Below are positions 5,444 to 17,607 of a stretch of DNA of 38,490 nt, piece after piece (position 1 is the first letter of the stretch; every line of letters starts with the position of its first letter). The DNA is taken from positions 185,001 through 223,490 of the forward strand of contig NZ_FOSN01000006.1 of NCBI RefSeq assembly GCF_900114285.1. Reading direction: 5' to 3'. The position numbers and the translations under genes are program-made. The notes beneath the pieces were generated by a model. The model was not told where the DNA came from. It made no database searches and was given only the letters and a program-made list of their open reading frames with translations. Origin of the DNA: Methylocapsa palsarum. Lineage in GTDB: Bacteria; Pseudomonadota; Alphaproteobacteria; Rhizobiales; Beijerinckiaceae.

Positions 5444-5470
5444 TGGCGGTCGTACGATCTGGAGGCGTTG

Positions 5471-6268
5471 GTGGCGCGGTTAGCGATTTTTGCCAAGGGC
5501 AACCTCGACGTCAAGAACTCGCTTCATTCCTATGTCCAGGGCGATAAGGTTCTCTGGAACGGAATCAATGAAATCGTCCGGCGCCTGTATCCTGGCGCGG
5601 CAGTCCATGTTCAGCACGAGACGTGGACGCGATCGGACGCGCTTTTGATGTCGGACGGCGTTGTGCCCGCCGAAATCGAATCGCGGAGCCTTTCCCTGGG
5701 CTCCTATACGGCGGCGGCGCAGTTTAGCCAGAAGCTTTTCGCGGTGGAGTGCGCTGCTATTGTGCTTTCCATCCAGACCGACCTGACGACGTCTCTGTTG
5801 CGTCGCCGGGGCTGCGGCTATTTTTTTTATCCCAACCAATCAAAGACGTGGTCTTCTGACGACAGGAATTGGATGCGCGAAAATTTCGAGCGTCTTGGTC
5901 CGCTGACGCCTGAAGAATCCCTGCAAAATTATTTTCAGATCGTCGAGAAGATCCGGCGGAGGACGCAGGCCCCCATTCTCGTCTATAATGTTTCGGCCGT
6001 TGTCCCAGGGGAAGATGTTCACTGCTATGAAGGCATGGAGGAGAGCTTCGCCACGAGAATCCGCCGTTTCAATCTTGGATTGGTGGAACTGTCGGAGCGC
6101 ACCGGAATAGATATTATTGACGTTGATCGGATTGTCGCGCGCGCCGGCGCCGACAAACTCAAAAGCGACGCGCTCCACCTGACGGCCGAGGGATACGAAC
6201 TGATCGCGCAAGAAGTTGTTCGCGTGCTCGACGATCATGGCTGTTTTCCGCCGGCGCGGGCGATGTGA
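5471..6268 (+). CDS. SGNH/GDSL-hydrolase-like protein 1
   Basis: A 265-residue protein without signal peptide. The GTG at 5471 is chosen because GGAGG sits five bases upstream. The N-terminal strand runs into 'AKGNLDVKNSLHSY', where an SGNH hydrolase would carry its first block, but no canonical GDS is present. The C-terminal third has a helix with 'FNLGLVELSERTGIDIIDVDR', then Asp233 and His236 in 'SDALHLTAEGY', the classic D-x-x-H block V. The fold assignment is reasonable; activity (esterase, acyltransferase or none) is open. It is the first gene of the plus-strand unit and its TGA overlaps the ATG of the glycosyltransferase by one base. Two further proteins in this cluster share the C-terminal pattern. 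Confidence 0.8.
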   Translation: MARLAIFAKGNLDVKNSLHSYVQGDKVLWNGINEIVRRLYPGAAVHVQHETWTRSDALLMSDGVVPAEIESRSLSLGSYTAAAQFSQKLFAVECAAIVLSIQTDLTTSLLRRRGCGYFFYPNQSKTWSSDDRNWMRENFERLGPLTPEESLQNYFQIVEKIRRRTQAPILVYNVSAVVPGEDVHCYEGMEESFATRIRRFNLGLVELSERTGIDIIDVDRIVARAGADKLKSDALHLTAEGYELIAQEVVRVLDDHGCFPPARAM

Positions 6269-7296
6269 TGCGGGTCAGCGTCGTGATCCGCTCGAAGGAT
6301 GAGGCCGACCGCCTCCGCCTGACGTTGCATTCCCTTTCTTGTCAAACGACGCCAGCAGAAATTGTCGTCGTCAACGACGGCTCCAGCGACCACACCCGCG
6401 AGGTGATCGAGGAGGCGGCCAAAAGCGCGCCCCTCGCCGTGGCGCATCACCGGGCGCCGCGCGGGCGGTCCGCCGCGGCGAATGCAGGCGTCGAAATCGC
6501 CAGTGGAGACATTGTCCTGTTTCTGGACGGCGATACGCTCGCGGCGCCCGATCTTGTGGCGCGCCACGCCAGTGTCCACGCCGAAGATGCGGAAATCGTC
6601 GGACGCGGCGAGACGCATCATCTCAGGGGAACCCGGTTTTTCCTCGATCCTGAGAAGGGAACGCCAAAGCCCGGCGAGGAAGCTCGCGTCGCACGGTTGT
6701 CGCCGGCGGAGATGACCAGGATGTGCGTCACTCGCGCGGAGATCCGTGAAAATTTCGCGGCGATCGATCTGCGGTCGCAGGCCGGAGTTTATCCGGGCGC
6801 AGGCGCTCGCGCTCTCTACGAGCTTGAAATGGACGCCTTGCGCCATCATCCGAATTGCGCCGTGCTGTGGGCGGCCGCCAGCGGCAGCAACATGTCCGTT
6901 CGCCGCGCCTCGTTCCTGCGTGAGGGCGGATTCAACGCAGGCGTCGATATCAACGAGCATAGGGAGTTGGCGTTGAGACTCACGCAGGCGGGCGCGCGGA
7001 TGACGGCTGTAGACGGCGCCCGTACATATCACCTCACTCACCGCGCCGGCTGGCGCGATCCGTTGAAGGATACAGGTTGGGAAGATGTTTTCTATCAGGC
7101 CCATCCGATCCCCGACGTCAAGCTGCTGGCGGTTTTGTGGGCGAGTTTGTCCGATGCGGCAGGCTTGCCCGCAAAATATCGGATATTCTCGCTTCCGGAA
7201 TTGGAAAAAGCCGCGCGTAGGGATTCAGGTTTTGATTGCGACGCCGCCCGGAGCCACATTCCGGGTTTTACAGGAAGCAACGCGTCGCCGACATAA
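6268..7296 (+). CDS. Glycosyltransferase family 2 protein
   Basis: A 342-residue GT-A fold enzyme that should transfer a sugar from a nucleotide donor. Start ATG at 6268 overlaps the previous stop as TGATG, typical of translational coupling; a GTG one codon upstream is possible. Visible motifs are 'VSVVIRSKDEADRL' at the N-terminus, 'VVVNDGSSDHT' (nucleotide binding), 'FLDGDTLAAPDLV' (the D-x-D-like metal site), and 'ASGSNMSVRRASFLREGGF' (acceptor region). There are no transmembrane segments, so it is a soluble or peripheral enzyme. The context (SDR on activated sugars, a second GT2) suggests assembly of a glycan or glycosylated small molecule. Donor and acceptor are unknown. Confidence 0.9.
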   Translation: MRVSVVIRSKDEADRLRLTLHSLSCQTTPAEIVVVNDGSSDHTREVIEEAAKSAPLAVAHHRAPRGRSAAANAGVEIASGDIVLFLDGDTLAAPDLVARHASVHAEDAEIVGRGETHHLRGTRFFLDPEKGTPKPGEEARVARLSPAEMTRMCVTRAEIRENFAAIDLRSQAGVYPGAGARALYELEMDALRHHPNCAVLWAAASGSNMSVRRASFLREGGFNAGVDINEHRELALRLTQAGARMTAVDGARTYHLTHRAGWRDPLKDTGWEDVFYQAHPIPDVKLLAVLWASLSDAAGLPAKYRIFSLPELEKAARRDSGFDCDAARSHIPGFTGSNASPT

Positions 7297-7341
7297 TTTC
7301 TTAATGACTATTCGAACATGCCTGCGGGCCTGGAGTCGATC

Positions 7342-8175
7342 GTGATTGCGTCATCGCCGGTTTTGGTTGAGGCTGTGGTTTCAGATACGGAGCGTCCGGG
7401 AGTGACGGCTGCTTTTGCGCGGCTTTCGGAATGTCTGCAAGAAACGACCGGCGCTCCCTTTACGGTGGAGTTGAAATTCGCCGACTCGTTGTCGGCTTGT
7501 GGATTGTCCGAACGGCCAACAGTCATTCTCGCCTCGCTCCTCGGCGAAATCGAGAACGGGGATAGCCTTGACGTTATACGGCGGCGCTGGACAGAGGCGT
7601 TTTCCGCGATCGCAAGGCGCGGCTTCCACATCTGCTTCGTCTGCACCATTTTTCGTCACGTCGCCGGCGCCGATGCGAACGCCGTCTATGCGACGCGCGA
7701 GCGAATTCGCCGGCTGAACCTCTTTTCCGCGGACCTGTCGCAGGAAACCGGCGTCAACGTCATCGATCTGGACCGGTCCTTCTCCCATCTGGGCGCGCGA
7801 GCGCTTGCGACAGATTTCCAGCTTGCAGGTCCGCACGCTTCGGCGGCCTTCGCCGACGCGATCGCTTCCGCGCTTCTCACGATTGGCCTCGATGACATCG
7901 TTCCGTTCGAAATTCTGGAGCGAGCCCTTGTCGCTCACAGCGAGCGAAAGGCGCAGCCGTCGGCGTCCCAGATATCCATGTCCGCCGATCTGCTGGGATA
8001 TGACGCGATTCAAAAGGACAAGCGGCGGCAGACGTTTTCCCGTGTGCCGGTCGCTCTCACGCCGACAACCGTCGGTCAGCTGCTCAGCGATCTGAGGCGT
8101 CGGCGCATTTCCTGGACTCTCGCCTCGCAGATCATTCTCAGAAAAGTGCGTCGGCTCCGTGGACGCCGGGCATGA
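7342..8175 (+). CDS. SGNH-hydrolase-like protein 2 (degenerate)
   Basis: A 277-residue soluble protein of no named function. I prefer GTG at 7342 because GGAG lies six bases before it; an in-frame ATG at 7318 has no ribosome-binding site and would add eight residues. The C-terminal half shows the same pattern as the SGNH-like proteins at 5471-6268 and 11362-12735: 'RLNLFSADLSQETGVNVIDLD' followed by a D...H region. Here the spacing is D-F-Q-L-A-G-P-H rather than D-x-x-H, so a normal catalytic pair is doubtful. The last 50 residues are basic (repeated Arg/Lys). It sits between the glycosyltransferase and the SDR on the same strand. Homology to the SGNH fold is inferred from shared pattern, not proven. 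Confidence 0.72.
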   Translation: MIASSPVLVEAVVSDTERPGVTAAFARLSECLQETTGAPFTVELKFADSLSACGLSERPTVILASLLGEIENGDSLDVIRRRWTEAFSAIARRGFHICFVCTIFRHVAGADANAVYATRERIRRLNLFSADLSQETGVNVIDLDRSFSHLGARALATDFQLAGPHASAAFADAIASALLTIGLDDIVPFEILERALVAHSERKAQPSASQISMSADLLGYDAIQKDKRRQTFSRVPVALTPTTVGQLLSDLRRRRISWTLASQIILRKVRRLRGRRA

Positions 8176-8221
8176 TTGCGCCGCGTCAGCGATATGCTCG
8201 CCGGATGAGACGCGAGGGACG

Positions 8222-9115
8222 ATGGTGACAAAACATTTGCCCACAGTTCTGATCACCGGCGCGTCCGGCATTCTCGGCCAGAAGCTTCGGCGTCATTTCT
8301 CGTCACTTGGATGGAGGCTGAAGTTGATCGACATCGACGACTTCGGCGACCCGGCTGTGATCAAGGCGGATCTTTCCGTCCGCGACGAAGCCTGGACGCG
8401 CCATTGCATCGGCGTCGACGCCATCATCCATCTTGCGGCGCAAACCCGTCCGGATGCGCCATGGGACGCGGTCGCCCGGAGCAATGTCGCCGCGACCCAA
8501 AATGTTTACGAAGCGGCGCGCCAGGGGCCCCGGAGGGTTGTGTTCGCCAGTTCGAACTGGGTGATGGCGGGCTATCGCTATCGCGACGGCAAATTAACGA
8601 CCGATTTGCCTCCGGCGCCGATCAATCCGTATGGCGTTTCAAAATTGATAGGGGAGAGCCTTGGCCGTTTCTATCATGAGCGCTGGGGGCTTTCCACGAT
8701 CTGCTTCCGGATCGGATATTGCCTTCCCGGCGAGAACCTCCCGGGACAGTGGATGGACCTTGGCTTCTGGGGGCAGCTTATGTGGCTGTCCGACCGCGAT
8801 CTGTGTCAGGCCATGGAGCGCGCGGTGTTGGTTGACGATGTTGGATTCGCCATTTTGAATCTGGTGAGCGACAATCCCGGCATGCGTTGGGACATCGACG
8901 CAACCCGAACGCTGATAGGCTATCGGCCGCTCGACGGAGCGATCCCTGTGTTGCCGCTTCGAACGCGGATGAGGGAGGCCATCGCATCGTTGGCGCGGCG
9001 AAACTTCTCTTTCGCCAACACGTGGCGCCCCCCCTATGAAGCTGTAGATTTCGCGGCGCCAGCGGATCTTTCGCAATCTTCTCCAGAACGGTGCGATCTC
9101 AATGGCCACAGATAA
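8222..9115 (+). CDS. NAD(P)-dependent sugar epimerase/dehydratase, uronate-dehydrogenase-like extended SDR
   Basis: A 297-residue extended short-chain dehydrogenase. The ATG at 8222 is chosen for GAGGGA five bases upstream. The Rossmann dinucleotide motif is Gly13-A-S-G-I-L-Gly19; 'IIHLAAQTRPD' follows, then 'ASSNWVMAGY' and the catalytic pair Tyr137-x3-Lys141 ('YGVSK'). The layout 'SSN...YGVSK...FRIG' is that of uronate dehydrogenase and related NDP-sugar or aldose enzymes. It would oxidise, epimerise or reduce a sugar that feeds the glycosyltransferases. The last 14 bases overlap the E1 alpha gene, tying it to the ThDP enzyme in one mRNA. The exact substrate is not readable. Confidence 0.85.
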   Translation: MVTKHLPTVLITGASGILGQKLRRHFSSLGWRLKLIDIDDFGDPAVIKADLSVRDEAWTRHCIGVDAIIHLAAQTRPDAPWDAVARSNVAATQNVYEAARQGPRRVVFASSNWVMAGYRYRDGKLTTDLPPAPINPYGVSKLIGESLGRFYHERWGLSTICFRIGYCLPGENLPGQWMDLGFWGQLMWLSDRDLCQAMERAVLVDDVGFAILNLVSDNPGMRWDIDATRTLIGYRPLDGAIPVLPLRTRMREAIASLARRNFSFANTWRPPYEAVDFAAPADLSQSSPERCDLNGHR

Positions 9116-10055
9116 GCGCGGAGGGAGATTGGACAGGGTTTTGCTCCTGCGGTCGATGATGCTGATTCGCGCCTTCGAGGCCGCGCTGCTCCGAAATCCA
9201 GGCCATGGCTTTCAACTCCTGTCGAGCGGCGAGGAAGCCGTCGCCGTAGGCTTATGCGCCGCCTTGACCGCCGATGATCAGTTGCTGACGAGCGGCCGTT
9301 CGATCGGCCCCGCCCTCGCTCGAGGGCTCGATCCGGGCCGCGTCCTCGCCGAGCTTCTTGGAAAATCGGCCGGTCCTTGTCAGGGAAAGGGCGGCCGCGG
9401 CCACATCGCCGAGCCCTCTGCGGGCTTTTTTGGCGCGCATGCTGTCGTCGGCGGCAATCTGACGATCGCCGCTGGCGTCGCGCTGGCTCTACAAAGCCTT
9501 GGATCGAAGGCAATCGTTGCTTGTCTTTTCGGCGATGGCGCCTGTGGCGGCGGCGCCCTGCACGAGACGCTGAACATCGCGGCGCTGTGGAAACTCCCGC
9601 TTGTCCTTGTTTGCGACAACAACCGATATTCTGTTTCAACTCCTCGCGCCGCGGCATTGGCGCCCGAATATCTGAGCGACATCGCCAAGCCGTTCGGCGT
9701 GCCGGGTCAAACGGTCGATGGCATGGACGTCATGGCGGTGCTTGAGGCCGCGCGGGGATTCGTGGAGCTTGCGCGCTCCGGGGGCGGTCCGTCGTTTCTC
9801 GAATGCGTCTCGTTCCGCTTCTCCAGTCATTCGACGGCGACTCGCGATACGCGAACGCCTGCCGAACTGGACGCCGCCCGAAGCCATTGCCCGATCGAAC
9901 TTATGGCGGGGCGCCTCGCGGCGGAGGGGTTGCTTGCTCCAGACGTGCGGGCCGAACTTGAACACGATGTGGCCGAGGCGGTCTCCGCAGCCGCAAGTTT
10001 CGCCGAGGCGTCGCCTTTTCCCGATCCGTCGGAGGCCTTGAGCGATGTCGCGTGA
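9102..10055 (+). CDS. ThDP-dependent 2-oxoacid (pyruvate/acetoin-type) dehydrogenase E1, alpha subunit
   Basis: A 317-residue E1 alpha subunit that, with the beta subunit, decarboxylates a 2-oxoacid on thiamin diphosphate and hands the resulting unit to a lipoyl group. The ThDP/Mg motif runs from Gly144-Asp145-Gly146 ('FGDGACGGGALHETLN') to Asn173-Asn174 ('VLVCDNN'), the normal spacing. 'GRGHIAEP' and 'GFFGAHAVVGGNL' match the conserved region before it. ATG at 9102 overlaps the SDR gene by 14 bases, and the 3' end overlaps the beta gene by 11. It is at the short end for the family. Acetoin-dehydrogenase and pyruvate-dehydrogenase E1 are not separable here. Its setting, among glycosyltransferases and with no E2/E3, is unlike a housekeeping complex. 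Confidence 0.92.
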   Translation: MATDKRGGRLDRVLLLRSMMLIRAFEAALLRNPGHGFQLLSSGEEAVAVGLCAALTADDQLLTSGRSIGPALARGLDPGRVLAELLGKSAGPCQGKGGRGHIAEPSAGFFGAHAVVGGNLTIAAGVALALQSLGSKAIVACLFGDGACGGGALHETLNIAALWKLPLVLVCDNNRYSVSTPRAAALAPEYLSDIAKPFGVPGQTVDGMDVMAVLEAARGFVELARSGGGPSFLECVSFRFSSHSTATRDTRTPAELDAARSHCPIELMAGRLAAEGLLAPDVRAELEHDVAEAVSAAASFAEASPFPDPSEALSDVA

Positions 10056-11037
10056 GCCGCAGACCCGCGTCGTCAAACTGTTCTTCCGGGAGGCGATTGC
10101 GCGCGCGCTTCGGGAAGAGATGGCTCGCGATGAGCGGATCGTCATCCTTGGCCAGGATGTGGGTTCGTTCGGCGGATCCTACAAGGAATTTCTTGGACTC
10201 TACAAGCAATTCGGCGCGGCGCGCGTGCGCGATACGCCGGTGGCGGAAGCCTCGATGGTCGGCGTCGGCGCCGGCGCGGCGGCGGCCGGCCTTCGTCCGA
10301 TCGTGAGCATCACCTACATGGATTTCCTGATGCTCGGGCTGGACCCGCTGGTCAATTATGCGGCGAAGGCGAGGTACAAGACGGGTGGTCAGCTGAGGGT
10401 TCCGCTGATCGTCAAGACAACCGCCGGGGCGAAAGGTCAGGGAGTCGCGCATTCGCAATGTCTGGAAGCCTGGCTCATGTCGGTTCCTGGCCTGAAGGTC
10501 GTCGCGCCGTCGACGCCGGCCGACGCCTACGGGCTCATGAAATCCGCGCTTCGCGAGAGCGGCCCTGTCGTCTACGTCGATCACAAGCGCCTTTTTCCCA
10601 TGGCGGGCGAGATGCCGGAAGACGAGCAAATCACGCCGTTCGGGCTCGCTAAATATCTGCGGAGAGGCGCAGACGTCACGATCGCGACCTATTCCCACAT
10701 GACGCAGGTGGCGCTCGCGGCGGCGGAAGCGCTGGCGGCGGAAGGCGTCTCCTGCGAAATCATAGATCTGCGATCGCTGGCGCCGCTCGATCTTGCGACC
10801 GTCTGCGATTCGGCCGGCCGCACCGGCGCGCTCCTCACCTTGGAGGAGGGTCAGATTGTGTGCGGGGTGGGCGCGGAGATCGCCTTCCGGGTGAGGGAGA
10901 AACTCGGCGGCGCTGTAAGGATCGATCGCGTCGGCGCCCTGGCGGCGCCCGTTTCCTCCAATCCGGTGCTGGAGGCTGCTTGCGTCCCCGATTCCGCGCG
11001 GGTCGCCCGCGCAATCCGAGGATTGCTGGCCGCGTGA
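10045..11037 (+). CDS. ThDP-dependent 2-oxoacid dehydrogenase E1, beta subunit
   Basis: A 330-residue partner of the alpha subunit, with the usual transketolase pyrimidine-binding and C-terminal domains. ATG at 10045 has GGAGG upstream inside the alpha gene. Key features are 'VILGQDVGSFGGSYK', the 'DTPVAEASMVGVGAGAA' segment holding the glutamate that activates ThDP, and 'GQGVAHSQCLEAWLMSVPGLKVV' with the active-site histidine. The C-terminal domain ends with 'VSSNPVLEAACVPDSARV', as in PdhB/AcoB. All catalytic features look intact, so I expect an active enzyme. It is followed at once by a free lipoyl-domain gene. No E2 acyltransferase or E3 flavoprotein is found in the window. Confidence 0.93.
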   Translation: MSREPQTRVVKLFFREAIARALREEMARDERIVILGQDVGSFGGSYKEFLGLYKQFGAARVRDTPVAEASMVGVGAGAAAAGLRPIVSITYMDFLMLGLDPLVNYAAKARYKTGGQLRVPLIVKTTAGAKGQGVAHSQCLEAWLMSVPGLKVVAPSTPADAYGLMKSALRESGPVVYVDHKRLFPMAGEMPEDEQITPFGLAKYLRRGADVTIATYSHMTQVALAAAEALAAEGVSCEIIDLRSLAPLDLATVCDSAGRTGALLTLEEGQIVCGVGAEIAFRVREKLGGAVRIDRVGALAAPVSSNPVLEAACVPDSARVARAIRGLLAA

Positions 11038-11048
11038 GCCATGTTTCA

Positions 11049-11369
11049 ATGGAGAAAGAGCAAGTGATTTACCAACTCGTTGTCCCAGGTCCAATCGAGG
11101 ATGTTGAAGAACTGCGCGTGCTGGAATGGCACGGCGACGTCAACCAGGAGTTCTTGGTCGATGAACTCATCGTTGAACTGGAGACGCATAAGGCGATCGT
11201 CGAAGTGCGCGCCGGACAGCGCGGATTCCTGCGTCAGGTGCTGGGAGAGGCCGGAAGCTGGGAAAAGATCGGCAAGCCGCTCGCCCTGTTGAGCGACGCC
11301 TCCGACGAGGCGATTCCCGCATCGCTCGACGGCGTCGCGCCATTGCTGGCCGCGTTTGAAGTCATGTAG
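11049..11369 (+). CDS. Free-standing lipoyl-domain carrier protein
   Basis: A 106-residue protein consisting of one lipoyl/biotinyl domain plus a short tail. The modified lysine is predicted as Lys48 in 'ELETHKAIVEV', on the beta-turn of the barrel-sandwich fold. 'VDELIVELETHKAI' matches the consensus of 2-oxoacid dehydrogenase E2 lipoyl domains. A normal E2 would continue with a peripheral-subunit-binding domain and a large catalytic domain; both are absent and the gene ends in a clean stop. I start at ATG 11049; a GTG at 11034 overlapping the E1 beta stop (GTGA) is an alternative adding five residues. It would accept the acyl group from E1 and carry it to an unknown acceptor enzyme. Confidence 0.88.
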   Translation: MEKEQVIYQLVVPGPIEDVEELRVLEWHGDVNQEFLVDELIVELETHKAIVEVRAGQRGFLRQVLGEAGSWEKIGKPLALLSDASDEAIPASLDGVAPLLAAFEVM

Positions 11370-12735
11370 GCTTCGCAGCCGAAAACCCGGCGACGCCGAG
11401 CCCGTCCAGAATGTGGAGGATCTCCGCGCGGATCTCCGCCTGCAAGGCGCCGCTCGAATGCACCCCGTCGGGAAGATGCGCCGCCCCTCCCATATCCGCC
11501 GCGATGGCGTCGACGTCCACGATCCCGATCGCGCTCTCGCGCGCCAGATCGTGCAACATAAGGTTCATTTCTTTCGCATGAATGGTGGTCAGCGTGTCGC
11601 TGAGCGGCTGGTCGAAGGCGGCGTAATTGAAAACATCCTCATGGCCGGAACTGGACATCCGGTTCATGATCAGAATTTTGGCGTCTCCATGAGCGCGGGC
11701 TGCGTCGATCAACTGCCGATAATCGTTCAGGATGTCGGCCGGCGCGCGTTTCACCTGCTCGAAAGACGAGCGCAGCCATTCGAAAAAGGCGGGGCCGGCG
11801 AATCGGCTGCGAACGCAGTGGACCGTATAGCCAAGTTCCTTGTGCCGCAGAACGACCGGCCCCTCAGCCATCAGCGACAACACGACCGCATCGGGCGGGC
11901 CCGTTCGGCTGAGCCCCGAACGCGTCAGCATGTCATAATGATCGGTCATCGGTGATTTGCCGAGGGAGGCGAGCAGGCAACCCGCGAAAATCCAGTCGCT
12001 GGCGTTCGGGACCGCCGGTCCGGCGAGCATCCCTTTCGCCAGATCGGCGGCGATCGCGCCGGCCTCCGTCTTGGAGCGAAGAATTTGTTCTTTCACGACT
12101 GCGGCGCAAGGCGATTGCGCTTCGTCCGGAATGAAAACGGCATGAGCTGGCCCAGAGACCGCATCGAACAGGTCGGCAAACGGAAGCCTGTCCCCGAGTA
12201 TGACGCCGACCTGTTCGCAAATCCCGAGGCTGAGCAGGGTGCCGAACCGTCCCTTTCCCTCGCCCCACCAGGCGCGGCTGCGCTCGTTCCAGCCCGTGAG
12301 GAACCCGGAGCGGTCTTCCGCCAGTCCCGTGGCTCTGCGCCCGGCGGCAAAAAAAAGCCGGACGTCGCCGGCGGGCTCCGTGGACGCGCCCTCGCCCTCG
12401 CATTCGATATGCCCGATGACAAAGTCGGGGCGCCATTCCTGAAAGTCGTCCATTCGGTCGAGGAATCCGCCTTGCGATGATTCATCGACGCGTCGGAGGC
12501 GCCCGCCGACAGGCGTGGCGAATCCGACCTGAAAATCTCTGGCTTCATCAGCAAAGGGCGCTGCCCGGGAGACGAGGCGAGCGACGCTGGCTCCGCCAAG
12601 GCCCAGATTGCAATAGGCGACGATGTCGCCCGCCTTGCAAAGGCGCCCGTCGTCGCAAAGCCAGCGGATCCCCGAGCGCCGCACGATAAAACCGTCGGGC
12701 GCAAGAGGTCCAAGGCGGAGGGGGACCTTTCTCAT
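11362..12735 (-). CDS. SGNH-hydrolase-like protein 3, with an unassigned N-terminal region
   Basis: A 457-residue protein. ATG at 12735 has AAGGA five bases upstream. The N-terminal region begins 'MRKVPLRLGPLAPDGFIV' and includes 'CKAGDIVAYCNLGL', which hints at half of a barrel-sandwich (lipoyl-like) fold but has no modifiable lysine motif. The C-terminal ~150 residues carry the pattern of the other two SGNH-like proteins: 'KEMNLMLHDLARESAIGIVDVD', then the D-x-x-H block in 'LPDGVHSSGALQAEI'. It is transcribed against the lipoyl-carrier gene and overlaps its 3' end by eight bases. It follows the small protein at 12748-13080 by 12 bases, so those two form an operon. Role unknown; acyl transfer or hydrolysis on the product is a reasonable guess. 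Confidence 0.78.
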   Translation of the reverse strand: MRKVPLRLGPLAPDGFIVRRSGIRWLCDDGRLCKAGDIVAYCNLGLGGASVARLVSRAAPFADEARDFQVGFATPVGGRLRRVDESSQGGFLDRMDDFQEWRPDFVIGHIECEGEGASTEPAGDVRLFFAAGRRATGLAEDRSGFLTGWNERSRAWWGEGKGRFGTLLSLGICEQVGVILGDRLPFADLFDAVSGPAHAVFIPDEAQSPCAAVVKEQILRSKTEAGAIAADLAKGMLAGPAVPNASDWIFAGCLLASLGKSPMTDHYDMLTRSGLSRTGPPDAVVLSLMAEGPVVLRHKELGYTVHCVRSRFAGPAFFEWLRSSFEQVKRAPADILNDYRQLIDAARAHGDAKILIMNRMSSSGHEDVFNYAAFDQPLSDTLTTIHAKEMNLMLHDLARESAIGIVDVDAIAADMGGAAHLPDGVHSSGALQAEIRAEILHILDGLGVAGFSAAKPT

Positions 12736-12747
12736 TTTGTCCTTGAT

Positions 12748-13080
12748 CTAGGGCCCTTGGCCCGAAAAATCGGGCTGCGCATTCCAGACGATGCCAATGG
12801 TCGTGATCCGCGCCGGCCGCGCCGGAGCGCCTTCCAGCGATTCGTCGGGCTCACTTGTCGCGAGCGCCAGCGCGGTCCCGACCTCCGGCTCGTCGCCCGC
12901 GGCCACGAGAAGGCGGCGCAGCCATAGACCTTCCCTCACGGCGAGGCGATAATGGGAGATCGGAGGGCAGTCCTCGAAACTGACGTCGCTGAGGTCTATT
13001 GTCAGGTCCAGAAACTTGGAGCCGACCTTTAAAAAAATTCCTTCGCCGGCATGGATTTTATCGATCTTGGCCGAACTCAT
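12748..13080 (-). CDS. Small protein of unknown function, possible barrel-sandwich half-fold
   Basis: A 110-residue soluble protein with no named family that I recognise. ATG at 13080 is preferred since the protein then begins 'MSSAKIDKIHAGEGIFLKV'; a GTG at 13140 would add a short hydrophobic leader, and neither start has a clear ribosome-binding site. The middle part, 'LRRLLVAAGDEPEVGTALAL', has the rhythm of the second half of a lipoyl/biotinyl domain (v...GD.v.vG..la), but there is no modifiable lysine. It is first in the minus-strand pair with the 457-residue SGNH-like protein and next to a genuine lipoyl carrier. A docking or scaffold role with that carrier is speculation. Confidence 0.65.
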   Translation of the reverse strand: MSSAKIDKIHAGEGIFLKVGSKFLDLTIDLSDVSFEDCPPISHYRLAVREGLWLRRLLVAAGDEPEVGTALALATSEPDESLEGAPARPARITTIGIVWNAQPDFSGQGP

Positions 13081-13255
13081 GAGAGGGACGATTTTCGGCA
13101 AAGACAGTACAAAAAGCAAAGGCGGCCCCGATTTTTGCACATCCGGACAAAGTATTTGATCTATAAAGAGTTTATTACTGCCGTCACATCGAGGTCAAGC
13201 TCTTTGCCGGCGGGATGCTTGCGGTTCGGCCTCGGCCGGCGGGAAAACGACCTTC
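13081..13255. promoter_or_regulatory. Divergent promoter region between minus-strand pair and transglutaminase-like gene
   Basis: This 175-bp gap separates two divergently read genes and must hold start signals for both. The section 13150-13180 is markedly AT-rich for this genome (TATTTGATCTATAAAG, TTTATTACTG). I see no clean -35/-10 pair with standard spacing, so only the region is given. Confidence 0.35.
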
Positions 13256-14539
13256 GTGACCCAGTTTACCTTTGCCCCGGATGGGCGCTATCGAGCTATC
13301 CCGGAAGGCCGCATTCTGGAGATCCTGCTCCTCTCCGGCTGGGCTTATGAAATCCGCGAAGGCGAGCGCGACGCGGCCGTGCGGGAAACCCAAAGCGCCC
13401 TTGACGGCTGGGTGGACCTCGGGCTGCCCTTCGAGCGATCCGCGCGCGGAGAGCGGCTTTTCGATCCCACGGAGGTCGTCAATTTTCTGAAATGGGCCGG
13501 GCTGTTCCACGGCGACCGGTTCTGGGAGGCGAGGTTCGTTTCAACCGGCCGCCGCCTGACGCACAGCTTTCTGTCCCCGAATTCCGCGACAAACGACCCG
13601 CCGCAGCTCTCCGATCTTCCTCCCAGAGCCTTCGCTGTCGTCTTGCGCAGGGAGTTCAATCTCGAAGGCGCGCCCTCGAGCCGGCGTCTTCGCCTGCGCC
13701 TTCCGCTCCCGATCGAGGATGACAACCTTGGGGATTTGCAAATTTCCATTTTGCCTCATGGCTTCATGGATGAATTCCGAACAATCGTCACGCCAGGACG
13801 GCTGGATGCTTTGATCCATGCGCCGATCGGTCCGGCCGTCAGCCTCGGCTTTGAAGCGACCTTCACCGCCTGCGCGGCCTCCGCCGCGCCGGGATCCCTC
13901 GCTTCGGCTGAGCGTGACCTCTACACCCGTCCAAGCGAGGGGTTGATACAACTCACCCCTCGGATCGCCGCACTCGCGGAACGGCTGGCGGGCGCGGAGC
14001 GGGAGCCTCTGAGACTTGTGGAGCGCTTCTGGTCCTATATGATCGAAAACCTGTTTTGCGGCGCCGTCCGATACGAGGAATTGCCCGCGACACGCCCGCT
14101 CGATTTCGTACTGGAGAAAGGCTGGTTCGATTGTCAGCTGGGATCCGCGCTTCTTGCGGGGCTCTGCCGGTCGCGCGGAATTCCCGCGCGCATCAACAGC
14201 GGGCATCTGCTTTATCCGCTCGCGCCGACCAACCATTATTGGGTTGAAATCTGGTGCGGGGATGCGGGGTGGCTGCCGTTTGATCTTCTCGCCTGGGATC
14301 TTTCGGCGCGCGGCCGCGATAGCGCGTGGAAAGATCATTTCCTCGGGCGCCTCGATTACCGGTTCAAGACGGAGCGCCTGCCCCGGCTGTTTACGGGTCT
14401 TAGCCCCGTCAAGCTGCCTCTGGCCTGGCGGATCCTGTTGCGCCCGCTCAAGGAAGGGGTGGAGATCGGCTTCGCCGCTCTTCCCTCGGGCGAGGCGGTT
14501 TTCACCGATCGGATCAGCGTGACCCAGACGCGCGAATGA
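13256..14539 (+). CDS. Transglutaminase-like cysteine-protease-superfamily protein
   Basis: A 427-residue protein; GTG at 13256 is the start. The C-terminal half is a transglutaminase-like (TGc) core with a complete triad: Cys293 in 'GWFDCQLGSALLAGLCR', His327 in 'TNHYWVEIW' and Asp343 in 'WLPFDLLAW'. This superfamily includes peptidases, amidases and acyl-transfer enzymes that work through a Cys thioester. The N-terminal ~250 residues are not familiar; a beta-rich segment around residues 130-200 ('RLRLRLPLPIEDDNL') resembles the jelly-roll-like leader domain often found before such cores. No signal peptide is seen, so it is probably cytoplasmic. It converges with the second glycosyltransferase, three bases apart. 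A thioester enzyme beside a lipoyl carrier suggests acyl transfer, which is inference. Confidence 0.82.
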   Translation: MTQFTFAPDGRYRAIPEGRILEILLLSGWAYEIREGERDAAVRETQSALDGWVDLGLPFERSARGERLFDPTEVVNFLKWAGLFHGDRFWEARFVSTGRRLTHSFLSPNSATNDPPQLSDLPPRAFAVVLRREFNLEGAPSSRRLRLRLPLPIEDDNLGDLQISILPHGFMDEFRTIVTPGRLDALIHAPIGPAVSLGFEATFTACAASAAPGSLASAERDLYTRPSEGLIQLTPRIAALAERLAGAEREPLRLVERFWSYMIENLFCGAVRYEELPATRPLDFVLEKGWFDCQLGSALLAGLCRSRGIPARINSGHLLYPLAPTNHYWVEIWCGDAGWLPFDLLAWDLSARGRDSAWKDHFLGRLDYRFKTERLPRLFTGLSPVKLPLAWRILLRPLKEGVEIGFAALPSGEAVFTDRISVTQTRE

Positions 14540-14542
14540 AGC

Positions 14543-15340
14543 TCACGCGCCGCCGATCGTGAACGCGGGCCCGTTGTTGCCTTGAACCCTCACTGGATCT
14601 CGACCAAAATCGAACGCGCGGAGGCCGTCGCGGATCTGAGTCTCCCGGCGCGTCAATTGTCCGCGCGAGATCGAAAGCGAGTTGGCGAGCATCTGGTGAT
14701 GATCATCCGGCCAGGTGTTGGCGCCATGGCTGATGTAAACATAAAGGTGCGGAGCGCCTTCGAGAAGGCAGACCTCTTTTTTCTCGTGCAGCTGCATCGC
14801 GACGGCGAGATCTTCGCCGCATGCGGACTGTTCTCCCGATTCAGGGTAGCTCACATTTGCGGAGCGTTTCAGCATCAAAGTCCCCGGGTGGCCCATGGCC
14901 GGCGTCGCGCGCCAGTTCATGCAATAAAGATCCCGGCGCTTGATGAAATAGTGCATCACTTCCTGCAGGTAGACGGCCTGCCGGCCTGACTCGATCAGCG
15001 CTTTCAGCTGACGCTCGAGCCGTTGCGGATGATGAAAATCGTCGTCGTCCCATTGGCAGCAAATCTCGCCGTGCGCCGCGCCCCGGCTGATGTTGCGCAG
15101 CTGGCCAAGGCTCGACGGGCGCTCGTTCTCGATGGTCGTGATGTCGTCTCTGGCGAGTTGCGCGAGATAGGCCTTGCAAATGGACTGGTCATGATGGTGA
15201 GCGCCGTCGAAAACGACGACGAGTTCTTTTCGCTGATAGGTCTGTCTGCAAAAATCCGTCACGCTTCGTTGCAGGTAGTCGAATCTTTCCCGGCCGCCTG
15301 TTGTCACGAGAAGACAGCTGATCAGGGGATCGACGTTCAT
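14543..15340 (-). CDS. Glycosyltransferase family 2 protein
   Basis: A 265-residue GT-A fold enzyme, shorter than the first one in the cluster. Motifs: 'ISCLLVTTGGRERFDYLQRS' at the N-terminus, 'KELVVVFDGAHHHDQS' (nucleotide-binding aspartate), 'CCQWDDDDFHHPQRLERQL' (an Asp-rich metal site) and 'ACGEDLAVAMQL' (the E-D general-base region). No membrane segments. ATG at 15340 gives the canonical short leader before the first strand, although no ribosome-binding site is clear. It is read on its own towards the transglutaminase-like gene, and a perfect dyad lies upstream at 15385-15412. Its sugar donor is unknown. Confidence 0.88.
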   Translation of the reverse strand: MNVDPLISCLLVTTGGRERFDYLQRSVTDFCRQTYQRKELVVVFDGAHHHDQSICKAYLAQLARDDITTIENERPSSLGQLRNISRGAAHGEICCQWDDDDFHHPQRLERQLKALIESGRQAVYLQEVMHYFIKRRDLYCMNWRATPAMGHPGTLMLKRSANVSYPESGEQSACGEDLAVAMQLHEKKEVCLLEGAPHLYVYISHGANTWPDDHHQMLANSLSISRGQLTRRETQIRDGLRAFDFGRDPVRVQGNNGPAFTIGGA

Positions 15341-15795: not shown

Positions 15796-17493
15796 TCAGT
15801 CGCCGCCGGGCTGCCGCATCTTTTCCAGCGCCTGATCAATCGAGAACGTCGCCGCTTTTTGGCGGGGCGGATAATCCTTGAACGTCGCGAGGAAATTCCC
15901 GACATAGGTCTGGGCAGGCACCAGCATGAACGCGTGGTCGAGCAGCCAGTCGTAATAGGTGTTCGAGGTGATGTTGGCCCGCTCGTAAGGGTCAAGCCTC
16001 AGATTGTAGATCAGCGGCACGCGCAGATTCGTGAAGGGCTCGGCCCAGACCTGAAGCGTGCCCTGAGCGCGCTGCTCGGCGAAGACGAATTTCCAGTTGT
16101 CGTAACGCAATCCCGTCAGGTCGCCCTCGTCGGAAAAATAGAAAAACTCCTTGCGGGGGCTCTTTTTCTCCTCGCCGGTCAGGTAGGGGACGAGGTTGTA
16201 GCCGTCGAGGTGCACCTTAAAAGTCGACTTGCCCGCCTTGTAGCCGGTGAGAAGCTTTTCCTTGACATCAGGGACCCCAGCCGCGGCGAGCAGGGTCGGC
16301 AGCCAGTCGAGGTGGGAGACGATGTCGTTCGACACTGAGCCGGGTTTGATCTTGCCCGGCCAGCGAACCATCGCGGGCACGCGGTAGGCGCCTTCCCAGT
16401 TCGAGTTCTTTTCGTTCCGGAACGGAGTCATCGCCGCGTCCGGCCAGGAATTCATGTGCGGGCCATTGTCGGTCGAATACATGACGATCGTGTTGTTCTC
16501 GATTCCGAGCGCCTTCAGCTTGGCGAGCACGGTCCCGACGTTCTTGTCATGATCGATCATCGTATCCGCATACGGGCCAAGCCAGCGTCCGGCCTGGCCG
16601 AGGCTCTCCGGTTTGGTGTGAGTGCGGAAATGCATATGCGTGAAATTCACCCAAAGGAAAACCGGTTTGTCCGCCTTGACCTGGCGTTCAAGAAAATCGG
16701 CGGAGCGCTCGGCGATGTCGTCGTCGATCGTCTCCATCCGCTTCTTGGTCAGCGGTCCGGTGTCCTCGATCTTCTGCGTCCCGTCGGGGTTCGCGAAGCT
16801 GTGGAGGACGCCCCGCGGTCCGAAATTCTTGCGGAAGTTGGGGAATTCCGGATCGTCGGGCTTCGGGTAATCGGGAAGCTCGGGCTCTTCTTCTGCATTG
16901 AGGTGGTAGAGGTTGCCGTAGAATTCGTCGAACCCATGCGCGGTCGGCAGCATTTCATCCTTATCGCCGAGGTGGTTTTTTCCGAACTGACCGGTCGCAT
17001 AGCCCTGCGCTTTCAGCAGTTCGGCGATGGTCGGATCTTCTTTCCGCAGGCCGAGATCGGCGCCTGGAAGACCGACCTTGCTGAGGCCGGTCCGAAAAAC
17101 GCTCTGCCCGGTGATGAAGGCCGAACGCCCGGCGGTGCAGCTTTGCTCGCCGTAATAATCGGTGAAGATGACGCCGTCGGTGGCGATGGAGTCGATGTTG
17201 GGGGTCCGATAGCCCATCAGGCCGTTGGTGTAGGCGCTGAGGTTCGACTGGCCGATATCGTCGCCCCAGATAATGACGATGTTCGGCTTGCTGCTTTCGG
17301 AAGCCTTGCCGCTCTCGGAAGCCTTGGCTGGCGCGGGAGCCTCCGCCGGGGCGGCGGCAGCGGGCGCGGCCTTTGCTGCCGGGGGCGGCGCTGTCATTTT
17401 TTTCTTGGGCTGCTGCGCGAAGGCGGGAGACAGCAGAACCCCCACGCTCACGGCAAGCGTAAACAATGGGATCGACAAATCCTTCAACCGCAT
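15796..17493 (-). CDS. Exported type I sulfatase (arylsulfatase family)
   Basis: A 565-residue sulfatase that should hydrolyse sulfate esters in the periplasm. ATG at 17493 is chosen because GGAGG lies six to seven bases upstream and it opens a clean signal peptide ('MRLKDLSIPLFTLAVSVG', cleavage near 'AFA-Q'). A low-complexity Ala/Pro/Lys linker (about residues 28-68) precedes the catalytic domain. Metal-binding 'IVIIWGDDIGQSNLSAY' follows, then the activation motif Cys119-T-A-G-R; Cys119 is converted to formylglycine by a sulfatase-modifying enzyme that is not in this window. 'YSTDNGPHMNSWPD' carries the second Asp/Asn metal pair. It is monocistronic with its own terminator. Nearby glycan genes suggest, but do not prove, a sulfated carbohydrate target. 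Confidence 0.93.
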   Translation of the reverse strand: MRLKDLSIPLFTLAVSVGVLLSPAFAQQPKKKMTAPPPAAKAAPAAAAPAEAPAPAKASESGKASESSKPNIVIIWGDDIGQSNLSAYTNGLMGYRTPNIDSIATDGVIFTDYYGEQSCTAGRSAFITGQSVFRTGLSKVGLPGADLGLRKEDPTIAELLKAQGYATGQFGKNHLGDKDEMLPTAHGFDEFYGNLYHLNAEEEPELPDYPKPDDPEFPNFRKNFGPRGVLHSFANPDGTQKIEDTGPLTKKRMETIDDDIAERSADFLERQVKADKPVFLWVNFTHMHFRTHTKPESLGQAGRWLGPYADTMIDHDKNVGTVLAKLKALGIENNTIVMYSTDNGPHMNSWPDAAMTPFRNEKNSNWEGAYRVPAMVRWPGKIKPGSVSNDIVSHLDWLPTLLAAAGVPDVKEKLLTGYKAGKSTFKVHLDGYNLVPYLTGEEKKSPRKEFFYFSDEGDLTGLRYDNWKFVFAEQRAQGTLQVWAEPFTNLRVPLIYNLRLDPYERANITSNTYYDWLLDHAFMLVPAQTYVGNFLATFKDYPPRQKAATFSIDQALEKMRQPGGD

Positions 17494-17607
17494 CAGTTTC
17501 CTCCCTCTCGAAGCCAACCTTGGCGCGAGGCCGAAGGGGCAGATTCTTAAATATTCGCAGAAAACGCAACGAAAGGCGCAGACGTCCAGAACTGAGCCTT
17601 GGGTCCG

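Follow-up and report, generated by a model that had tools for sequence, protein, structure and literature searches.

A 38,490-nucleotide stretch of the Methylocapsa palsarum genome (contig NZ_FOSN01000006.1, positions 185,001 to 223,490; hereafter, the window) carries a gene cassette that is also present, mostly in the same gene order, in 24 other genomes. Its core consists of nine genes, that is, those for three SGNH-like proteins (SGNH1, SGNH2, and SGNH3), a family 2 glycosyltransferase (GT2a), the alpha and beta subunits of the E1 component of a 2-oxo acid dehydrogenase, a free lipoyl protein (LIP), a small protein (SMALL), and a transglutaminase-like protein (TG); a second family 2 glycosyltransferase (GT2b) is optional. 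An earlier note, made from the letters of the window, had described an E1 pair and a free lipoyl carrier, lacking E2 and E3, within a glycosyltransferase-containing cluster; this description stands, with the set conserved and no E2 or E3 found in the stretches searched at 28 loci. The cassette looks like an unstudied pathway for attaching an acid-derived group to a product that contains sugar; the open-access literature searched yielded no account of the gene set. The cassette is real, and its distribution is wider than is visible from the window alone.

Distribution of the cassette

All eleven genes named in the earlier note are present at 5468-15340 of the window and were confirmed by Pfam or profile matches; most neighboring genes overlap or sit within ~50 bases of one another. 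The 25 genomes with the cassette comprise the host's own (4.1 Mb), 15 loci from a scan of a genome collection for LIP, and nine genomes from searches with an SGNH3 profile; this is a minimum, since the count depends on how sensitive the scan was. The LIP scan used a two-sequence alignment and only two short patterns, and 15 of 227 stretches were confirmed. According to the record titles, the 24 other genomes belong to alpha-, beta-, and gammaproteobacteria together with one metagenome-assembled genome (MAG) labeled Eremiobacterota; those from the LIP scan are Aromatoleum, Bordetella (MAG), Nevskia, Eremiobacterota (MAG), Micropepsaceae, Burkholderiales, Gluconacetobacter, Novosphingobium, two ‘Proteobacteria’, Methylocella silvestris, Sphingomonadales, Hyphomicrobiales, Rhizobiales, and Erythrobacter, the MAG labels being possibly wrong. 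Named strains with the cassette are, again by record title, Gluconacetobacter tumulisoli LMG 27802, Novosphingobium flavum NBRC 111647, and Methylocella silvestris TVC.

Of the 15 LIP-scan loci, 13 carry every core gene (L055 and L064 with TG truncated where the contig stops); in the remaining two, L051 and L060, the contig begins inside E1 alpha. GT2a is 56-63% identical to that of the window in 12 of these loci and 40-41% identical in L051 and L052 (it is off the contig in L060); in L052 the GT2, only 41% identical, is sited elsewhere. SGNH1 is relocated behind TG in L059. The L057 cassette is interrupted by 4 kb with genes for a UbiA-HAD protein, a protein of 588 aa, and a small EamA protein (L057:10725-14264). 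Next to the cassette in L059 there is likewise a UbiA relative (41%); its occurrence in both places suggests a lipid-linked sugar in some versions of the cassette. Apparent fusions of SMALL with SGNH3 (L056) and of SGNH1 with GT2a (L062) were discarded because the alignments ran past a stop codon.

The SGNH3 profile (16 rows) identified two positive genomes among 385 of the class (one new), two among 347 of the family of G957 (one new), and nine among 249 of the family of G956 (seven new); the host, G957 (L058), G956 (L057), and G1363 (same gene positions as L059) were not counted as new. The nine new genomes are G837, G1058, G1370, G1433, G1525, G1557, G1505, G1477, and G1548. G1525 and G1557 are close kin (SGNH3 99.6% identical), the GT2a match of G1557 falls in two overlapping pieces, and the contigs of G1505, G1477, and G1548 are short, so the full set is not readable in one piece. 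Each positive genome gave exactly two profile matches, SGNH3 and SGNH1; thus, this SGNH family was unseen outside the cassette in the genomes searched. Closer to the host, a LIP search of 199 genomes of its family gave a close match in two, the host and G040 of the same genus (E = 1.2e-29), the next best (1.4e-10) lying in an open frame of ~400 aa, an E2-like length; among 397 genomes of the order, E1 beta was matched at E ≤ 1e-90 in the host only.

The recurrence in 24 other genomes is more than chance. The earlier note had proposed a search for conserved co-occurrence of E1 alpha, E1 beta, the lipoyl protein, the SGNH-like proteins, and a short-chain dehydrogenase/reductase (SDR); all but the SDR recur together in the other genomes, apart from G1058 (no cassette-type E1 beta found; see below) and sets cut short by contig ends. 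The SDR gene (8222-9115, +; NAD epimerase/dehydratase type) had no match in the other cassette loci and is a local extra of the window's genome, outside the conserved cassette, so its proposed role as a pathway component is not upheld. It is placed between SGNH2 and E1 alpha in this genome only, and it has a sub-cut-off match to the NAD-dependent glucose-6-phosphate dehydrogenase Azf (131 bits, cut-off 400).

A sulfatase gene adjoins the cassette at 15796-17517 of the window. In M. silvestris TVC (L043), a sulfatase copy 89-92% identical lies ~8 kb from the cassette, and a second copy, 43% identical, adjoins the first. No empty insertion site was shown in the genus, where 19-20 kb stretches of three relatives matched only the sulfatase. 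An anti-phage system was rejected (none of ten proteins, the SDR not among them, matches PADLOC), as was a phage origin (one weak PHROGs match, GT2b, for seven proteins tried); likewise, none of 18 pattern matches to LIP in viral contigs was confirmed.

The E1 pair, its lipoyl carrier, and the absence of E2 and E3

The genes for E1 alpha (9102-10055, +; E1_dh, 3.6e-63) and E1 beta (10045-11037, +; Transket_pyr, 9.2e-40; Transketolase_C, 6e-30) encode proteins that keep the thiamine diphosphate motif and the catalytic residues: the histidine of E1 alpha is present in 22 of 22 readable sequences, and the glutamate and histidine of E1 beta in 24 of 24. LIP (11049-11369, +) is a free carrier of 106 aa (Biotin_lipoyl, 5.8e-8) with its predicted lipoyl Lys48 within VELETHKA; this lysine is found in 26 of 26 sequences, in the motif ETHKA or ETYKA in a set of 17. 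The intact E1 residues and lipoyl lysine that the earlier note reported are thus confirmed in the window. On the strength of these residues, charging of the lipoyl group by E1 is likely.

We calculated a tree (LG+G4, 1000 ultrafast bootstraps) from 631 columns of 32 concatenated E1 alpha/beta pairs, 15 from cassettes and 17 references; L051 and the nine later genomes are not in it. The references, a biased sample drawn from plasmid records and the host genome, include the host's pyruvate dehydrogenase (PDH), E1s located beside E2/E3, branched-chain keto acid dehydrogenase (BCKDH), pairs linked to acyl carrier proteins, two pairs with free lipoyl proteins, and a pair from what we take, from its plasmid, to be the lankacidin system. 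The pairs from cassettes group in a single clade (bootstrap 100, branch 0.71) apart from the PDH, acetoin-type, BCKDH, and lankacidin E1s; they are 57-81% identical to one another (mean 64%) and 28-45% identical to the references (30-42% as means for each of the 17). Of the clades against which the earlier note had wished to place the E1s, PDH, acetoin, and BCKDH are separated from the cassette; AviB is not in the tree. At two positions that are histidine in 15 of 17 references, the cassette E1s have leucine (14/15) and isoleucine (15/15), which may mean a changed substrate site.

That the E1 genes are ordinary PDH or acetoin genes in a mixed neighborhood, or an accident of annotation, is scarcely credible: the window's E1 alpha and E1 beta do score as PDH-like, under the equivalog cut-offs, but the separate clade and a gene set kept in 25 genomes contradict this, and we ruled out an ordinary E1. 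The outcomes that the earlier note had regarded as damaging to its proposal, that is, clustering with ordinary E1s, E2/E3 nearby in relatives (within the flanks searched), or no conservation, were all looked for and none was observed.

Within the clade, the window's pair groups with that of Nevskia (L053, support 90) and the M. silvestris TVC pair with those of acetic acid bacteria and sphingomonads (support 100); these different placements speak for horizontal spread of the cassette. Plasmid-borne copies were not detected: an E1 beta match occurs in 726 plasmid records and an E1 alpha match in 631, but none of these matches reaches 60% identity.

Seven E2/E3 queries (tblastn, E ≤ 1e-3) gave nothing in the window and matched only LIP in the 28 loci (15 + 13), apart from one further match in L052 to an alpha/beta-hydrolase-like stretch; the search covered at most 10 kb around the match for the 15 LIP-scan loci (shorter at contig ends), and it detected the control L048, the two E3 queries being without a positive control for the catalytic part. 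Elsewhere, the host genome has two E3 genes (above the curated cut-off) and, in a row on contig C47, PDH E1 alpha, E1 beta, E2, and E3.

The cassette might then borrow the housekeeping PDH E2/E3 and make an ordinary acyl-CoA (coenzyme A thioester), with the linked genes using it or being mere neighbors. The complete PDH row of the host would allow this, and E1 with a free lipoyl protein and no E2 does occur beside transporters in catabolic-looking settings: on plasmids of Thermus thermophilus (L050:4027-6208) and Rubrobacter indicoceani (L072:2721-5042), genes for an E1 alpha/beta pair and a free lipoyl protein (~80 aa) adjoin those for TRAP or sugar ABC transport, with no E2 beside them, possibly a catabolic theme. 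We nevertheless consider borrowing quite improbable, because SGNH1-3, SMALL, TG, and GT2a travel with E1 and LIP across classes, the core holds no transporter, and SMALL is itself of predicted lipoyl fold (see below). As a separate observation, plasmid operons of Methylocystis and Cupriavidus (L069:1609-6854; L070:1651-6813) encode an acetate-CoA ligase, E1 alpha, E1 beta, an E2-like protein, and an acyl carrier protein.

The SGNH-like proteins and their partners

SGNH1 (5468-6268, +), SGNH2 (7318-8175, +), and SGNH3 (11362-12735, −) are mutually related by profile (SGNH2 to SGNH1, 96.7%). SGNH1 matches GDSL_2 at 1.5e-7, just below the Pfam cut-off; SGNH3, with an N-terminal beta domain and an SGNH-fold domain, matches it at 1.8e-4, below the cut-off; and SGNH2, a diverged relative, has no Pfam match of its own. 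AlphaFold2 (AF2) models of SGNH1 and SGNH3 (pLDDT 86.9 and 80.8) match SGNH esterases and thioesterase I in Foldseek; SGNH1 matches GDSL esterases at E = 3.5e-8 and has 63 matches at E ≤ 0.001, and SGNH3 has one. As judged from the models, both proteins have the SGNH fold. A relationship of the SGNH3 N-terminus to lipoyl domains was not established (Foldseek matches to ODO2/ODP2 are weak; the profile comparison, 42%, spans 19 columns only), and no signal peptide was seen by eye in SGNH1.

The position of the GDS serine after strand 1 (assigned with DSSP and alignment, not superposed coordinates) reads K-G-N in SGNH1 and A-G-R-R in SGNH3; it is asparagine in 22 of 22 readable SGNH1 sequences and arginine in 22 of 25 SGNH3 sequences (otherwise His, Gly, or Leu). 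These proteins thus seem to be without a serine nucleophile. The histidine is kept: SGNH1 has Asp234 and His237, its Asp-x-x-His motif being invariant (23/23), and SGNH3 has His426 (His in 25/25, Asp in 24/25). SGNH2 has the histidine of this motif in none of 22.

SMALL (12748-13140, −; 130 aa) has no Pfam match in the window, and 14 members together gave one weak match to each of two lipoyl families. However, it aligns end to end with LIP in a profile comparison (97.7%) and over 83 columns with an independent set of lipoyl domains (95.5%; one of its ten rows, that from C. difficile, is something other than a lipoyl domain), a comparison in which SGNH1 and SGNH2 reach only 0.1%; all eight of its PDB matches are lipoyl domain proteins, at weak E-values (0.45-1.6). 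Between the strand VDLS and the next strand, lysine is present in none of 25 sequences (three have one just before the VDLS strand), and Cys-Pro (Cys58-Pro59) is present in all 25. SMALL is therefore predicted to be a second lipoyl-fold protein from which the lipoyl lysine is absent.

TG (13256-14539, +; transglutaminase-like, 9.8e-12) has an intact Cys-His-Asp triad (Cys in 25/25, His and Asp in 24/24 readable sequences); among known transglutaminase-like acyltransferases, some accept thioesters from carrier proteins, for example, AdmF of andrimid biosynthesis. GT2a (6265-7296, +) belongs to the cassette; GT2b (14543-15340, −; 5.6e-15) accompanies it in seven genomes, the host included.

A proposed acyl relay and known systems

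The reading that we favor, with slightly less than an even chance, is an acyl relay in which E1 charges LIP, proteins of the cassette replace E2, and the acyl group goes onto a glycoside made by GT2a. E1 alpha/beta would use thiamine diphosphate to decarboxylate a 2-oxo acid and would reductively acylate the lipoyl lysine of LIP; proteins encoded in the cassette would then remove the acyl group from acyl-dihydrolipoyl-LIP, those SGNH proteins that have a histidine but no serine and SMALL with its cysteine receiving or transferring it and TG acting as a cysteine acyltransferase; the group would end on the glycoside assembled by GT2a, and a housekeeping E3 would reoxidize dihydrolipoyl-LIP. E2 acts through a histidine base without a serine, and for this reason we propose direct acyl transfer by the SGNH proteins. 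That cassette proteins stand in for E2 is plausible; a sugar as the target is a reasonable guess, for which GT2a is the only basis. A more specific version, that is, a new type of relay in which the group passes from E1 to free LIP to the cysteine of SMALL and serine-less SGNH enzymes then acylate a sugar-containing product with no CoA, strikes us as rather unlikely.

If the relay is correct, lipoyl carriers would serve biosynthesis as acyl carriers with neither E2 nor CoA, in a way comparable with acyl carrier proteins; it would also provide a handle on a serine-less SGNH family and on a lipoyl-fold protein with a cysteine. The cassette is compact, present in named strains, and open to direct testing.

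Several points weigh against the relay. The arguments for lipoylation of LIP, its charging by E1, acyl transfer by SGNH, SMALL, or TG, and a glycoside acceptor are all indirect. With no histidine in SGNH2 and no serine in SGNH1 and SGNH3, these proteins may not be catalysts. The flanking genes vary among genomes, and glycan genes are found in only some. In L051, a second LIP has no E1 adjoining. Finally, G1058 keeps LIP, SGNH1-3, SMALL, GT2a, GT2b, and TG (SGNH3-SMALL at one site, LIP-SGNH2-GT2a-SGNH1/GT2b/TG ~200 kb away), and a cassette-type E1 beta was not found in that genome, where the six matches are 39-43% identical (best E = 5e-72), compared with 65-67% in G1505 and G1477; E1 may thus be replaceable by another E1 or not be central.

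G1058 and the invariant cysteine of SMALL would also suit LIP as a redox or sulfur carrier rather than an acyl carrier, and a non-acyl free lipoyl protein exists in LbpA of the sHdr sulfur-oxidation system (PMC10332631). We regard this as distinctly improbable, because E1 beta lies beside LIP at every LIP locus except G1058 and the second LIP of L051, and at E ≤ 0.001 LIP matches PF00364 (Biotin_lipoyl) only and no GcvH family.

The product might instead be a branched-chain sugar, with E1 moving a hydroxyalkyl group (two-carbon or longer) from thiamine diphosphate onto a keto-sugar and LIP setting the redox state only. AviB1/AviB2 (avilamycin) and Pau11/Pau12 (paulomycin) are E1-like pairs of sugar pathways, and the main text of the paulomycin paper, which lists AviB1/AviB2 under accessions AAK83190 and AAK83191, does not mention lipoyl (PMC4425429); GT2a is conserved, and the window's SDR could reduce a keto branch. 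The SDR is outside the conserved set, however, LIP and its lysine are conserved as much as E1 (26/26), and LIP persists in G1058 where a cassette-type E1 beta was not found, so we judge carboligation unlikely.

Compared with known systems, the cassette shares with the PDH, acetoin, and BCKDH complexes an E1 alpha/beta pair with thiamine and catalytic residues and a lipoyl domain with its lysine; it differs in that it has neither an E2 catalytic domain nor E3, its lipoyl protein is free, its E1s form a separate clade, and its partners are SGNH, lipoyl-like, TG, and GT2 proteins. AviB-type systems also have an E1-like pair beside a glycosyltransferase, but the conserved set has no SDR-type keto-reducing enzyme (reductases of other families were not searched). 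The E1s of the Thermus and Rubrobacter plasmids fall outside the cassette clade, and the stretches inspected carry no annotated SGNH, TG, or GT2 gene. LbpA, too, is a free carrier that binds lipoate and does not belong to the 2-oxo acid dehydrogenases; however, it is described as GcvH-like, with its own lipoate assembly genes and as part of a redox system (PMC10332631), whereas LIP is not GcvH-like. Last, SGNH/GDSL hydrolases and acyltransferases (e.g., EstL5 and TesA) share with the cassette proteins the predicted fold and, in SGNH1, Asp-x-x-His, but the GDS position in the cassette is asparagine or arginine, not serine, and in the genomes searched the family was met only with the cassette.

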